Below, piece after piece: positions 3,295 through 7,134 of a DNA stretch of 20,319 bases; position 1 is the stretch's first letter; each line of letters begins with the position of its first letter. Below the pieces are notes generated by a model. That model was not told where the DNA came from and did no database searches. It saw only the letters and a list, made by a program, of their open reading frames with translations. The stretch covers positions 1 through 20,319 of IMG/VR virus record IMGVR_UViG_3300030102_004237. One strand, 5' to 3'. Origin of the DNA: a virus. The translations under genes and the position numbers were made by a program.

Positions 3295-3301
3295 ACCTCC
3301 T
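3295..3301 (-). promoter_or_regulatory. Full-consensus ribosome binding site for the SSB-like gene
   Basis: Read leftward the bases spell AGGAGGT, complementary to the 16S anti-Shine-Dalgarno tail, five bases before ATG 3289. Two of its bases are part of the upstream TAG stop (3300-3302). It is among the strongest ribosome binding sites in the window, consistent with high demand for a stoichiometric DNA-binding protein. Confidence 0.8.
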
Positions 3302-3866
3302 ATTTAGCGATCTTCGATTTAAAGCCGGAATACAGACCAAACAAGTCCACCGGCAAGTCGGTGCCTTGTTCCATCTGCTCTCTAGCAAAAGCCTTCAGGG
3401 TTGAGTGGTGAACCGCTTCTTTGGTTTCGATTTTGATACCCCGAGCTTGCAGTGCTTCGACCGCAATCTTCCAGTTATCGTCACTTTTACCAAATTTTGC
3501 TGTTACCTCCCTTTTGATTATGTCACCAAAACCATTGTCGAGGAGCCACGTGTGGGCTTCTTCGGCTTTAGCTTTCGTGATATGAGCGGTAACAAACGGT
3601 TCGGCTTTTACCCTAGAGCCATCTGCTAAACGTATCTCGGATACGCCAGCTTCGGCCAAAGCATCAGGAAGGTCGTGTTCTTGGACGACACGCAGTTGTT
3701 CCTTCTTCGCTTTCAGCTGATCCTCGAGTTCGGCTACGCCGCGCTCAAGGTCGAGTTGTTTATTTGCCAACTCAGCAATGCGACGGACTTCACCGTCGGT
3801 TGCCTCGACTGCTAAGGTGTTTATCGCCTCGCCCCCGAGGATATCGTCAAGGTTATCGTTAACCAA
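3300..3866 (-). CDS. Conserved-looking phage protein of unknown function, coiled-coil N-terminal half
   Basis: I do not recognise a named family. I place the start at a TTG (3864-3866), six bases after AAGGAG (3873-3878), giving 188 residues beginning MVNDNLDDILGG. The frame is also open to a GTG at 3914, but that has no good Shine-Dalgarno. Residues ~25-60 are a charged heptad-like coiled coil (LANKQLDLERGVAEL...LKAKKEQL). After it come a small compact region (LADGSRVKAEPF), WLLDNGFGDIIK, and a C-terminal segment HHSTLKAFAREQ...LPVDLFGLYSGFK. The last part has the look of a conserved phage domain I have met next to replication genes without a known role. The gene abuts the SSB-like gene, so it is probably a replication or recombination accessory factor; that is inference. 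Confidence 0.8.
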   Translation of the reverse strand: MVNDNLDDILGGEAINTLAVEATDGEVRRIAELANKQLDLERGVAELEDQLKAKKEQLRVVQEHDLPDALAEAGVSEIRLADGSRVKAEPFVTAHITKAKAEEAHTWLLDNGFGDIIKREVTAKFGKSDDNWKIAVEALQARGIKIETKEAVHHSTLKAFAREQMEQGTDLPVDLFGLYSGFKSKIAK

Positions 3867-3950
3867 AGTCTTCTCCTTCTTCAAGGTTGGAGCTAAATAC
3901 CGTATAGTCCTCACCGTAGGTTTTAAAGGACGTTTTACTGTAAAAGCTCG

Positions 3951-4038
3951 TCATAATCTCATAATCTCATAAGAAACGGTTTAACTGGCTGTTAACGCTC
4001 GTATTGTTTCTTATGACAGGGTCGATGACATTATGAGA
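3951..4038. repeat. Iteron-like octamers and an inverted repeat in the longest intergenic gap
   Basis: Three head-to-tail octamers, TCATAATC (3951-3958), TCATAATC (3959-3966) and TCATAAGA (3967-3974), lead into an inverted repeat. Its arms are TCATAAGAAAC (3967-3977) and GTTTCTTATGA (4006-4016), separated by 28 bases. The spacer contains a smaller inverted repeat, TTAAC tggct GTTAA (3981-3995). A further inverted copy, ATTATGAGA (4030-4038), overlaps the end of the nucleotidase gene. There is no U-run or GC-rich stem, so this is not a typical terminator. It could be an operator, a promoter region for the leftward replication genes, or an origin. Confidence 0.6.
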
Positions 4039-4624
4039 TAGATAAGCCGTCGCGAGGGAAAACAGCCTTCTTAGAAAAATTATTCGCTAGATAATCACTA
4101 TAGGCGTCTACATACGCGATTATCTGCGCCCTCATCTTCTTGTTAGAAACGTCTTCAATATCCTCCATCAGTTTATCGCGCACGTTAATGTACACATCCG
4201 CTAACAGCCAATTACCAAGATACATCTGCTCCATGCAATAGAACAAAAGTTCGATGCGGTCTGCAATCTTGATGTATCTATTCTCATATTCCCAAGACGG
4301 AACGCCAGTATGTTCTGACTTCCAGCCCATCTTCTGAAGAAATTCTTTTTCCCTCTGTTCGAGCGCCTCTTCTAACGCTGGGTGCGCCCACTTTACGTTC
4401 GCAGGGATATCACCTGTTACGACCTCCGGTACATCGTGCCGGATCGCAAAGATTAAACCGTCTCTGGAAATATCTGGAAACAAATCTAAGAGGATCATAG
4501 TCAAGCCCCATGTGTGGGCGGCTACGTTCTGTTCCTCACCGTTCATCGGGCGAATATGTAAGCGCCGGATGCGACCCGCCATTCGCGAGTTGTAAATTTT
4601 TTCGGGAAGAGTGTATTGCTTCAT
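4031..4624 (-). CDS. HD-domain 5'-deoxynucleotidase-like phosphohydrolase (YfbR-type)
   Basis: The protein has 197 residues, close to the size of E. coli YfbR. The metal-binding HD set is complete: H37 in VAAHTWG, H63-D64 in RHDVPEVVTGDIP, E67, D72 and D122 in IADRIELLFYCMEQ. In the YfbR/HD_3 family these residues bind a divalent metal and hydrolyse deoxynucleoside 5'-monophosphates to nucleosides and phosphate. In a phage this would adjust dNMP pools, for instance by removing a competing or modified nucleotide or by salvaging host DNA. It is the first gene of the leftward replication operon, starting from the divergent promoter region at 4625-4698. The ribosome binding site is poor: GGAG lies about 13 bases upstream. 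The substrate cannot be read from sequence. Marine phages also encode MazG-like and other pool-shaping enzymes, but the HD spacing points to the nucleotidase branch. Confidence 0.85.
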   Translation of the reverse strand: MKQYTLPEKIYNSRMAGRIRRLHIRPMNGEEQNVAAHTWGLTMILLDLFPDISRDGLIFAIRHDVPEVVTGDIPANVKWAHPALEEALEQREKEFLQKMGWKSEHTGVPSWEYENRYIKIADRIELLFYCMEQMYLGNWLLADVYINVRDKLMEDIEDVSNKKMRAQIIAYVDAYSDYLANNFSKKAVFPRDGLSIS

Positions 4625-4698
4625 AAGTCTAATCTTTCTCCGTATTTACTTGGAAGCTATACTATAATATAAGACCTGAAACGGATAGGTGCTTTTTT
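4625..4698. promoter_or_regulatory. Divergent AT-rich promoter region between nucleotidase and SNF2 helicase genes
   Basis: This 74-base gap separates head-to-head genes. It holds TATAAT (4663-4668) on the plus strand, embedded in the near-palindromic TATACTATAATATA (4658-4671). The opposite strand therefore also offers -10-like boxes (TATTAT, TATAGT). No convincing -35 is present on either side, so either an activator or a phage-specific factor may be needed. The helicase start at 4699 has only a weak ribosome site (ATAGGTG, about 6 bases upstream). Confidence 0.55.
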
Positions 4699-6147
4699 AT
4701 GACATTCACGTTTAAGACGAAACCGTATGACCATCAGCTACAAGCGCTTGAAGCTTCCTATCAAAGTGAGTCGTTCGCGCTGCTTATGGATATGGGAACA
4801 GGAAAGTCCAAGGTTCTAGTAGATACGATCGCGTACCTAGATGGTCAGGACTTAATTAATTCAGCGATTATTCTTGCTCCGAAGGGCGTTTACAAAAACT
4901 GGGTAGGCAAAGAACTTCCTGCCCACATGCCTGATACGACACGGCATAAAGTTGCATATTGGGCGTCCCCTCTAACGAAGGCGCATAAAGAAGCTATTCG
5001 AGAAATATGGAGGCCAGACGATAACCTTCACATTCTTGTTATGAATATTGAAGCGTTATCTACTGGAAAAGCTGAGGAAGTCGCTACCAAATTTATTTCT
5101 TCGCACGGTGGTTCGACATTAATCGCTATCGACGAGTCGACGGTAATTAAGAACCATAAAGCGCGTAGAACAAAAGCGGCTATCCGTATCGCTAAACGCT
5201 GTAAGTACAAGAGGATTCTTACAGGGTCGCCGATTACTAAAACACCGCTAGACTTGTTTGCGCAGTTTCAGTTCTTGGGTGAACAGCTATTAGGATTTAA
5301 ATCGTATTACGCTTTTTGCGCTCGTTATGCAGATATGATCAAACGAAGCGCGGCAGGTGGGTCACATCAATATAACCAGATTCTTGGGTTCCGTAACCTC
5401 GACGAGCTTACTGAATCTATCAAGCCGTATTCGTTTCGAGTTACGAAAGAAGAGTGTCTCGACCTACCGGAAAAAACATATACGATGCGTACGATCGAGC
5501 TAACGCCCGAACAAAAGAAAATGTACAACCAAATGAAGAAGACTGCCGTAGCATTATTAGACGATATGGAAATGGTAACTGCGAACGCTGTTATCACGCA
5601 GCTTCTCAGGCTACATCAAATTAGTTGCGGCTTTGTAAATACGGACGATGGGAATATCGTCCGGTTCAACAACAACCGTATGCCAGAACTGTTGGCTATC
5701 CTAGAAGAGGTAAACGGTAAAGCGATTATCTGGGCTAATTACCGACACGATATTATGGCTATCGAAATGGAGCTAGCAAGAGCCTATGGTCCAAGTTCTG
5801 TAGCTACTTATTTTGGAGATACAGATGGTGAAGCGCGGCAAGATATTGTTGAACGATTCCAAACTGACGACGAGCTACGGTTCTTTGTTGGACAGCCTAG
5901 AACAGGCGGGTATGGATTAACTTTAACTGCTGCATCAACAGTAATTTATTATAGTAACAGCTACGATCTTGAAGTAAGGTTGCAGTCAGAAGACCGTGCA
6001 CATAGAATAGGTCAAACGAACGCGGTTACCTACATCGACTTAATCGCGCAAGGCACGGTCGACGAAAAGATAGTCGGTGCTCTACGCAAGAAGATAAATA
6101 TCGCGACACAAGTGCTAGAGGAAGATTGGAAAAAATGGCTGATCTAA
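4699..6147 (+). CDS. SNF2/DEAD-like superfamily 2 helicase
   Basis: The protein has 482 residues and both RecA-like lobes. Lobe 1 carries a Q-like motif KPYDHQLQALE (8-18), Walker A DMGTGKSK (31-38), the motif II variant DEST (145-148) in place of DEAH, and TGSP motif III (175-178). Lobe 2 carries IIWANYRHD (343-351), RTGGYGLTL motif V (401-409) and RLQSEDRAHRIGQ motif VI (427-439), the last typical of SNF2-family enzymes. It is a DNA-dependent ATPase, likely a translocase or helicase in phage replication, recombination or remodelling of DNA-protein complexes. Many short phage SNF2 proteins share DEST and the lack of accessory domains. Its C-terminus overlaps the HTH gene by 13 bp, so the two are probably co-expressed from the plus-strand promoter at ~4663. 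Its plus orientation contrasts with the rest of the window. Confidence 0.92.
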   Translation: MTFTFKTKPYDHQLQALEASYQSESFALLMDMGTGKSKVLVDTIAYLDGQDLINSAIILAPKGVYKNWVGKELPAHMPDTTRHKVAYWASPLTKAHKEAIREIWRPDDNLHILVMNIEALSTGKAEEVATKFISSHGGSTLIAIDESTVIKNHKARRTKAAIRIAKRCKYKRILTGSPITKTPLDLFAQFQFLGEQLLGFKSYYAFCARYADMIKRSAAGGSHQYNQILGFRNLDELTESIKPYSFRVTKEECLDLPEKTYTMRTIELTPEQKKMYNQMKKTAVALLDDMEMVTANAVITQLLRLHQISCGFVNTDDGNIVRFNNNRMPELLAILEEVNGKAIIWANYRHDIMAIEMELARAYGPSSVATYFGDTDGEARQDIVERFQTDDELRFFVGQPRTGGYGLTLTAASTVIYYSNSYDLEVRLQSEDRAHRIGQTNAVTYIDLIAQGTVDEKIVGALRKKINIATQVLEEDWKKWLI

Positions 6148-6359
6148 TTGACGAGTTCAAACAACTTAGAAAAGAGTCTGGACTTTCTCAAAAAGACGTC
6201 TCCAAAGATACAGGCGTAAGCCTGATTACTGTATATACATGGGAAGCTAAACAGCGACAGCCCACCTTGTCGAACTTCAATAAGGTTCTAAACAAGATGG
6301 GCTACGAGGTCACTATCCGACCGCTCGCATCCGCTGAACCAACCGCTCAGCACGGTTAG
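6135..6359 (+). CDS. XRE/Cro-type helix-turn-helix regulator, 74 aa
   Basis: The preferred ATG at 6135 lies 12 bases after AGAGGA. A TTG at 6126 would add three residues but leaves too little room for the ribosome site. The protein is essentially one HTH_3-type domain: LRKESGLSQKDVSKDTGVSL (helices 1-3), VYTWEAKQRQPTL, then NFNKVLNKMGYEVTI. This matches Cro/CI-like DNA-binding domains, followed by a short Pro/Ala-rich tail. It overlaps the helicase by 13 bp (translational coupling) and its 3' end overlaps the lysozyme gene by 47 bp on the other strand. It plausibly regulates the divergent promoter at 4625-4698 and/or the repeats at 3951-4038. Without a dimerisation domain, integrase or partner repressor, it is not evidence of a temperate lifestyle. 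Confidence 0.88.
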   Translation: MADLIDEFKQLRKESGLSQKDVSKDTGVSLITVYTWEAKQRQPTLSNFNKVLNKMGYEVTIRPLASAEPTAQHG

Positions 6360-6756: not shown

Positions 6757-7134
6757 TTACTTCTTCAGTCCCTTTATTCCACGGAGTCCAAAGGAGGCTG
6801 CGATTGACGCATACATCGCCCATTGAAACCAATCTGGTGTTGTTGATAATACTTCAAAGCCTCTATCGACATACGGTTGAAGCGGTGGTATAAAACACAT
6901 TGCGATTATCGCAATAAATAAAATTGTCCAAGCCTCATCCTTCCAGCTGTCCTTGCTGGCTTCGGCCATGATTTTTTCCCACCCAGCTTCGTGGGTAGCA
7001 GCAACTTTCATAACTTCTGCTTCAGCCTCAGCTTTAGCGACTTTGACTCGCGATTGAGCAGCCTTTTCTTCGGCTTTGCCTTTTAGCCAACCACCGGCTA
7101 ATTCAGCTATAGCTGGTATTAGAGCTTGTATCAT
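6757..7134 (-). CDS. Holin, GTA-type three-transmembrane family
   Basis: The protein has 125 residues: a short hydrophobic N-terminal stretch (1-16, IQALIPAIAELAGGW), a charged Ala/Glu/Lys helix (18-60), then KDSWKDEAWTILFIAIIAMCFIPPL (segment ~69-87) and WFQWAMYASIAASFGLRGIKGL (~102-123). The order and the SWKDE...FIPPLQPYV and ASFGLRG sequences match the holin family described in gene transfer agents (GTA_holin_3TM), also common in marine phages. It should form the inner-membrane pore that releases the lysozyme encoded immediately downstream. It overlaps the preceding gene's stop by 4 bp. The family alone does not make this region a gene transfer agent; the remaining virion genes are podovirus-like. 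Confidence 0.85.
   Translation of the reverse strand: MIQALIPAIAELAGGWLKGKAEEKAAQSRVKVAKAEAEAEVMKVAATHEAGWEKIMAEASKDSWKDEAWTILFIAIIAMCFIPPLQPYVDRGFEVLSTTPDWFQWAMYASIAASFGLRGIKGLKK

Follow-up and report, generated by a model that had tools for sequence, protein, structure and literature searches.

Iteron-bearing origins of phages and plasmids, such as those of P4 (type I iterons, with ori and crr), R6K and lambda, combine short tandem and inverted boxes, proximity to replication genes and more than one cis-acting site. The element described here, carried by a virus record of 20,319 bases (the window, on which the neighbouring genes and the repeats are numbered), shares these traits: one short repeat recurs in it several times at constant spacing. 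It differs from iteron origins by its 8-bp step, its three boxes, a fixed facing geometry and the presence of two inverted copies around a gene module, and no initiator was recognised. Cro/CI-type (XRE) operators are also comparable in that an HTH_3 gene lies in a divergent operon, the site is intergenic and boxes occur in both orientations. However, these operators are made of separated palindromes whereas the boxes here are tandem with an 8-bp step, and a second copy lies far off, at the late operon. The usual targets of XRE proteins are palindromes and not tandem repeats of 8 bp, which counts against an XRE binder. Arrays bound by RHH proteins (MetJ met boxes, omega heptads) resemble the element by their contiguous boxes of about 8 bp, direct and inverted. 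The met boxes are palindromic, unlike the boxes here.

The Pelagibacter phages HTVC023P and HTVC027P, together with 023Pt_psg01 and DSL-LC04, have their SNF2, gp33/gp34-like, primase, helicase and polymerase genes in the same order. In contrast to the phages studied here, they carry neither array nor HTH gene (DSL-LC04 being covered in part). According to PMC12753301, RNA-seq of the array-less relative HTVC027P distinguishes early, middle and late gene clusters in a mosaic order. No description of the element was found in the literature searched, including passages of PMC9599517 and PMC12753301 (subscription papers lay mostly outside this search), and blastn of the element region against phages gave no match. 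For relatives of the abundant HTVC023P type of phage, it offers a cis-element of regulation or replication that is concrete and open to testing. Its parts and neighbours in the window are as follows:

3300-3866, minus strand: DUF7307 (Pam3 gp33-like) gene, first in the operon behind the element; a TTG start is proposed
3901-3928, minus strand: promoter-like CTTTAA-16-TATACG, a weak sigma-70 match, negative in a consensus scan
3951-3972, minus strand: three tandem 8-bp boxes, TTATGAGATTATGAGATTATGA, conserved in relatives and found in 0 of 200 shuffles
3973-4010, no strand: spacer of 38 nt between facing boxes, holding a small inverted repeat; its length is conserved, its sequence is not
4011-4016, minus strand: inverted box TCATAA, 44 bp ahead of the first tandem box, a distance kept in all copy-1 elements (see below)
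4023-4028, minus strand: degenerate inverted box TCATCG, 56 bp ahead of the first tandem box; TCAT is invariant in a 9-row alignment
4031-4036, minus strand: inverted box TCATAA, 64 bp ahead of the first tandem box, overlapping the nucleotidase stop codon
4041-4052, minus strand: conserved block CGACGGCTTATC, 80 bp ahead of the first tandem box, encoding here part of the nucleotidase C-terminus
4031-4624, minus strand: YfbR-like/HD nucleotidase gene, missing in several relatives that keep the element
4699-6147, plus strand: SNF2-like helicase gene, divergent
6126-6359, plus strand: XRE/HTH_3 protein of 77 residues (74 from ATG), a candidate binder

Read along the minus strand, the block CGCGACGGCTTATC is followed by the inverted boxes TCATAA, TCATCG and TCATAA, the 38-nt spacer and three tandem TTATGAnA boxes at 8-bp steps. 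In window numbering, TCATAA starts at 3951, 3959 and 3967, exactly as the three octamers of the first-pass annotation, and the facing TTATGA at 4011 and 4031. No other hexamer of more than two different letters is tripled at 8-bp steps anywhere in the window, and none of 200 dinucleotide shuffles reproduced the arrangement. The repeats are genuine, and chance was rejected as their source. Taken alone, the 11-bp inverted repeat (3967-3977 / 4006-4016, 28-nt spacer) is weak: 0.35 such repeats with spacers of 3-60 nt are expected per window, the maximum in shuffles was 3 (n=60) and the window has them at three places. The further inverted copy announced beyond it was found as a 9-bp match (3964-3972 / 4031-4039). 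As a single word, TCATAA is mildly enriched in the window (19 against 11.1 expected; 2 of 100 shuffles reach that many).

The minus strand carries the nucleotidase gene (4624-4031), the gap, the DUF7307 gene, a Pam3-gp34-like gene and an AEP-type primase gene, and the plus strand the SNF2-like helicase and HTH_3 genes. The DUF7307 gene could start at a TTG at 3866, preceded on the minus strand by an RBS-like AAGGAG, or at a GTG at 3914. With the TTG start, the non-coding gap covers 3867-4030 (164 nt) and is longer than had been claimed. The inverted copy at 4031-4036 overlaps the nucleotidase stop and is therefore partly coding. The element itself extends beyond the stretch first noted, to 4052 within the nucleotidase gene, and a second copy exists elsewhere in related genomes. 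An additional CTTATGA pointed out over the nucleotidase start (4621-4627) is present in only 3 of 16 distinct nucleotidase-start contexts, namely the window and two near-identical relatives, and is not a conserved feature.

A protein search with the gp34-like gene, blind to the array, gave 73 viral loci. The closest (L003-L005) have no nucleotidase gene, yet they keep its last ~25 bases, including the block CGACGGCTTATC, and both box arrays; these bases are therefore constrained as DNA. The block is also retained at the second genomic copy. The nucleotidase is present in L006-L017, among which the loci listed have an extra ORF of ~105 residues between the element and the DUF7307 gene, and absent from L018-L029, where the tandem boxes are present. 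No array was seen in seven more distant loci inspected from this search, nor in 30 of its loci that combine an extended SNF2 match with sufficient flanking sequence. A scan of one bacterial contig set gave 2 matches (L283, L284), rejected as TTATGATA repeats without the other parts. Loci are redundant in these counts, several contigs per population and the same places being retrieved repeatedly.

When nine sequences of the copy-1 region are aligned, variation is concentrated in the spacer and the extension, and the boxes hardly change. We extracted 97 distinct sequences and counted the 82 with a distal block, setting aside 15 without it (second-group elements, microsatellites, strays). Boxes and spacing are kept in 82/82 of these related elements, whereas the 11-bp hairpin and the nested repeat are not. 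The boxes are thus conserved in syntenic genomes, where an absence of conservation had been named as evidence against the element. The nested inverted repeat emphasised in the first-pass annotation is present in the window, but it is not the conserved part, since the spacer and the GAAAC/GTTTC extension vary and the RNA fold is not conserved. The distance from an inverted box to the first tandem box is exactly 44 bp in 39/39 copy-1 elements and 42 bp in 43/43 copy-2 elements, two of the latter (L082, L138) being classed by the downstream hairpin label and not by distance. A second box, whose orientation varies, is found at 62-67 bp, and part of the copy-1 elements carry another at 56 bp. The distal block occurs at 74/78/80, 87-89 or 99-100 bp, in steps of approximately one helical turn; such phasing is suggestive (p about 0.06 on cluster means). 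At copy 1, the start of the third tandem box and the TATACG hexamer behind it are 50 bp apart, with no indel in 9 aligned sequences.

A pattern scan of viral contigs for TTATGAnATTATGAnATTATGA gave at least 119 stretches. Ten of 14 IMG/VR records (up to 3 mismatches) carry the element at exactly two places in opposite orientation, facing inward and 15.3 to 19.4 kb apart, while the four shortest records have one place each; further rows of this search are the same arrays in shifted register. Only the first copy is present in the window record, as expected because this record is a fragment. In six near-complete records, double boxes are confined to the two places and gene order around both copies is the same. 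Copy 1 precedes the DUF7307/gp34/primase operon. Copy 2 lies between an early-region hairpin and the terminase small-subunit gene (TerS), with the GC-rich hairpin at the early-region end on one side and a promoter-like TTGCGG-17-TATCCT on the distal-block side. Between its tandem boxes and this hairpin, a clade-specific inverted repeat was seen by eye (L203, L217, L201), seemingly at the same place. The genes between the copies encode replication and base-modification functions (UvrD-like helicase, methyltransferase, 5-hmdU kinase-like, thymidylate synthase-like and family A polymerase). In one locus (L228, 3412-6073), methyltransferase, 5-hmdU kinase-like and thymidylate synthase-like genes stand in a row, which suggests that these phages may have hypermodified thymine DNA.

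The TTATGAnATTATGAnATTATGA scan also drew in phages with a different TerL and with TTATGACA boxes. Among 76 newly fetched TerL relatives, 33 show three 7-mers in tandem and, 38-50 bp upstream of these, a reverse complement, a layout that did not arise once in any of five shuffles of the complete 702 kb. Full geometry was counted in the 39 of the 76 loci where TerL starts at 1700 or more: 30 fit with up to 4 mismatches, seven look degenerate and two show nothing. The boxes agree within a locus and differ between loci (TTATGACA, TTATGACG, TTAAGACA, TTATTACA, TTATTACG). These elements (L285-L360) are located about 1.0-2.0 kb upstream of TerL, with further boxes over ~300 bp, and in two records of 57-59 kb boxes cluster at that single place only, by the TerS/early junction. 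BLAST between the groups detected shared tail, lysis-region and small early genes. A similar layout with concertedly changing letters thus recurs in the second group, whether homologous or convergent.

The conservation of the box arrays at fixed spacing indicates that they are very probably protein-binding sites. From the concerted change of letters under a fixed geometry, sequence-specific binding to all boxes would be the best reading. Among array-blind loci, an array near the SNF2 start and an HTH gene at its end occur together in 26 and are both missing in 30, with 0 discordant; for the full set of 124 loci, chosen for a long SNF2 match and sufficient flank and in part retrieved by array or HTH, the figures are 92, 32 and 0. 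The two sets are, however, two clades (at least 69% versus at most 57% SNF2 identity), so that the association amounts to one historical event. The linkage of an XRE gene to the array, as found at XRE operators, is seen here across one clade split. The AlphaFold model of the HTH protein is poor (mean pLDDT 59).

All six array genomes encode winged-helix-like proteins, both close to copy 2 and within the early region, and so does the array-less ct3Et533; none was found in HTVC023P, HTVC027P, 023Pt_psg01 or the part of DSL-LC04 read. One genome (G003) carries three such paralogues, two just past TerS (35266-35628, 36575-36925) and one in the early region (22717-23241), with counterparts in five other near-complete genomes. 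An RHH-like protein was recognised by eye in 3/6 array genomes, of clade A only. HMM searches for a shared binder gave no match for sigma-region-4-like proteins in 18 genomes or parts at E 0.05, detected no homologue of the XRE protein in three second-group records and found no phrog_1448 protein in group 1 that could be shared. In some second-group phages, small proteins resembling sigma-70 region 4 by eye are encoded: in L349 (5916-6179, oriented early part) and, as counterparts, in L084 and L341.

Taken together, these results are most likely explained by a multi-site protein-binding element acting as operator/enhancer of the early and late operons. The first-pass annotation, which proposed an origin or operator candidate, was thus right in kind as regards box arrays conserved at fixed spacing, though not as regards the nested repeat. 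As a whole, we give roughly even chances to a composite platform bound by a phage HTH protein and controlling both operon borders. A small phage-encoded HTH protein would bind side by side on the tandem boxes and, opposite them, on the inverted ones, and boxes and protein would form one nucleoprotein structure on about 100 bp. The XRE protein (6126-6359) would be the first candidate and the winged-helix-like proteins near copy 2 in relatives the second. Copy 1 might then control the divergent SNF2-HTH and DUF7307-gp34-primase operons, with autoregulation, and copy 2 the terminase (late) promoter, so that one protein could couple early and late transcription. Consistent with an operator, the array-less cultured relatives have a short intergenic gap at this place, where a sigma-70-like promoter is visible in 023Pt_psg01. 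Against it, no promoter in the copy-1 gap passed the consensus scan, and the orientation of copy 2 relative to its operon is the reverse of that of copy 1. The lack of a detectable XRE homologue in three second-group records also counts against this reading, and the winged-helix-like proteins of all six array genomes leave more than one candidate binder.

The main competitor, which we regard as less likely, is a replication origin, or origin plus enhancer, where an initiator on the iteron-like boxes would open nearby AT-rich DNA and the inverted copies would serve as origin and helper, as do ori and crr in P4. The tandem and inverted boxes do adjoin primase, helicase and polymerase genes, the two 57-59 kb second-group records have their single box cluster by the TerS/early junction, and incompatibility would favour a concerted change of box letters. 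AT-rich DNA follows the boxes at copy 1 of clade B, as judged by eye, but not at copy 2. GC skew, proposed initially as a check, lends the origin no support: it follows gene direction, with no turning point at the copies beyond a dip over the antisense SNF2 gene. An operator is favoured over an origin because the array goes with the HTH gene, whereas the primase, polymerase and SNF2 helicase are common to array-less relatives, and because the copies lie at operon borders, adjoining promoter-like sequence.

The two inward-facing copies flanking a 15-19 kb module in 10/14 records could also be inverted recombination, transposition or partition sites around a mobile or invertible replication module. 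We consider this improbable: no recombinase or transposase was detected by Pfam and PHROGs among ten proteins of one genome's module and border (small genes partly scanned), and the six near-complete records agree in gene order around both copies. A pac/cos site bound by the terminase small subunit would suit the position of copy 2 just upstream of TerS and that of the second-group element, near TerS and within about 1-2 kb of TerL; since the inverted copy 15-19 kb away would presumably package in the opposite direction, packaging seems slightly more improbable still. The least credible reading is that the operon transcript forms an RNA hairpin acting as leader or attenuator. RNA folding is good for the window (z -3.8) and for L003 and L013 (z about -3), but L011 gives -0.3, L022 0.0 and copy 2 +0.8, and no Rfam match was obtained up to E 1. 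A structured RNA element was rejected, since folding is lost where the boxes stay and no Rfam family was found.

Returning to the operator/enhancer, it is conceivable, and we propose it tentatively, that these elements form an undescribed class of phage control elements. A single geometry, in which three tandem 8-bp boxes are preceded at 42-64 bp by two or three inverted ones, would be common to at least two groups of uncultured phages, and its letters would drift in concert with a phage-encoded binder, creating recognition types comparable to incompatibility or immunity groups among phages that are not known to be temperate. The concerted change of boxes whose geometry stays fixed would make it possible to pair binder and box through co-variation, and it indicates which short spaced repeats in metagenomic phage contigs merit reading. 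Among six named phage genomes or parts checked for the geometry, one, Vibrio phage VA-RY-3 (L377), shows any resemblance: at about 6850-6950, an early rightward gene is followed by AGGAT-type boxes in a weakly similar layout. If this layout is real, VA-RY-3 would provide a culturable phage for tests.
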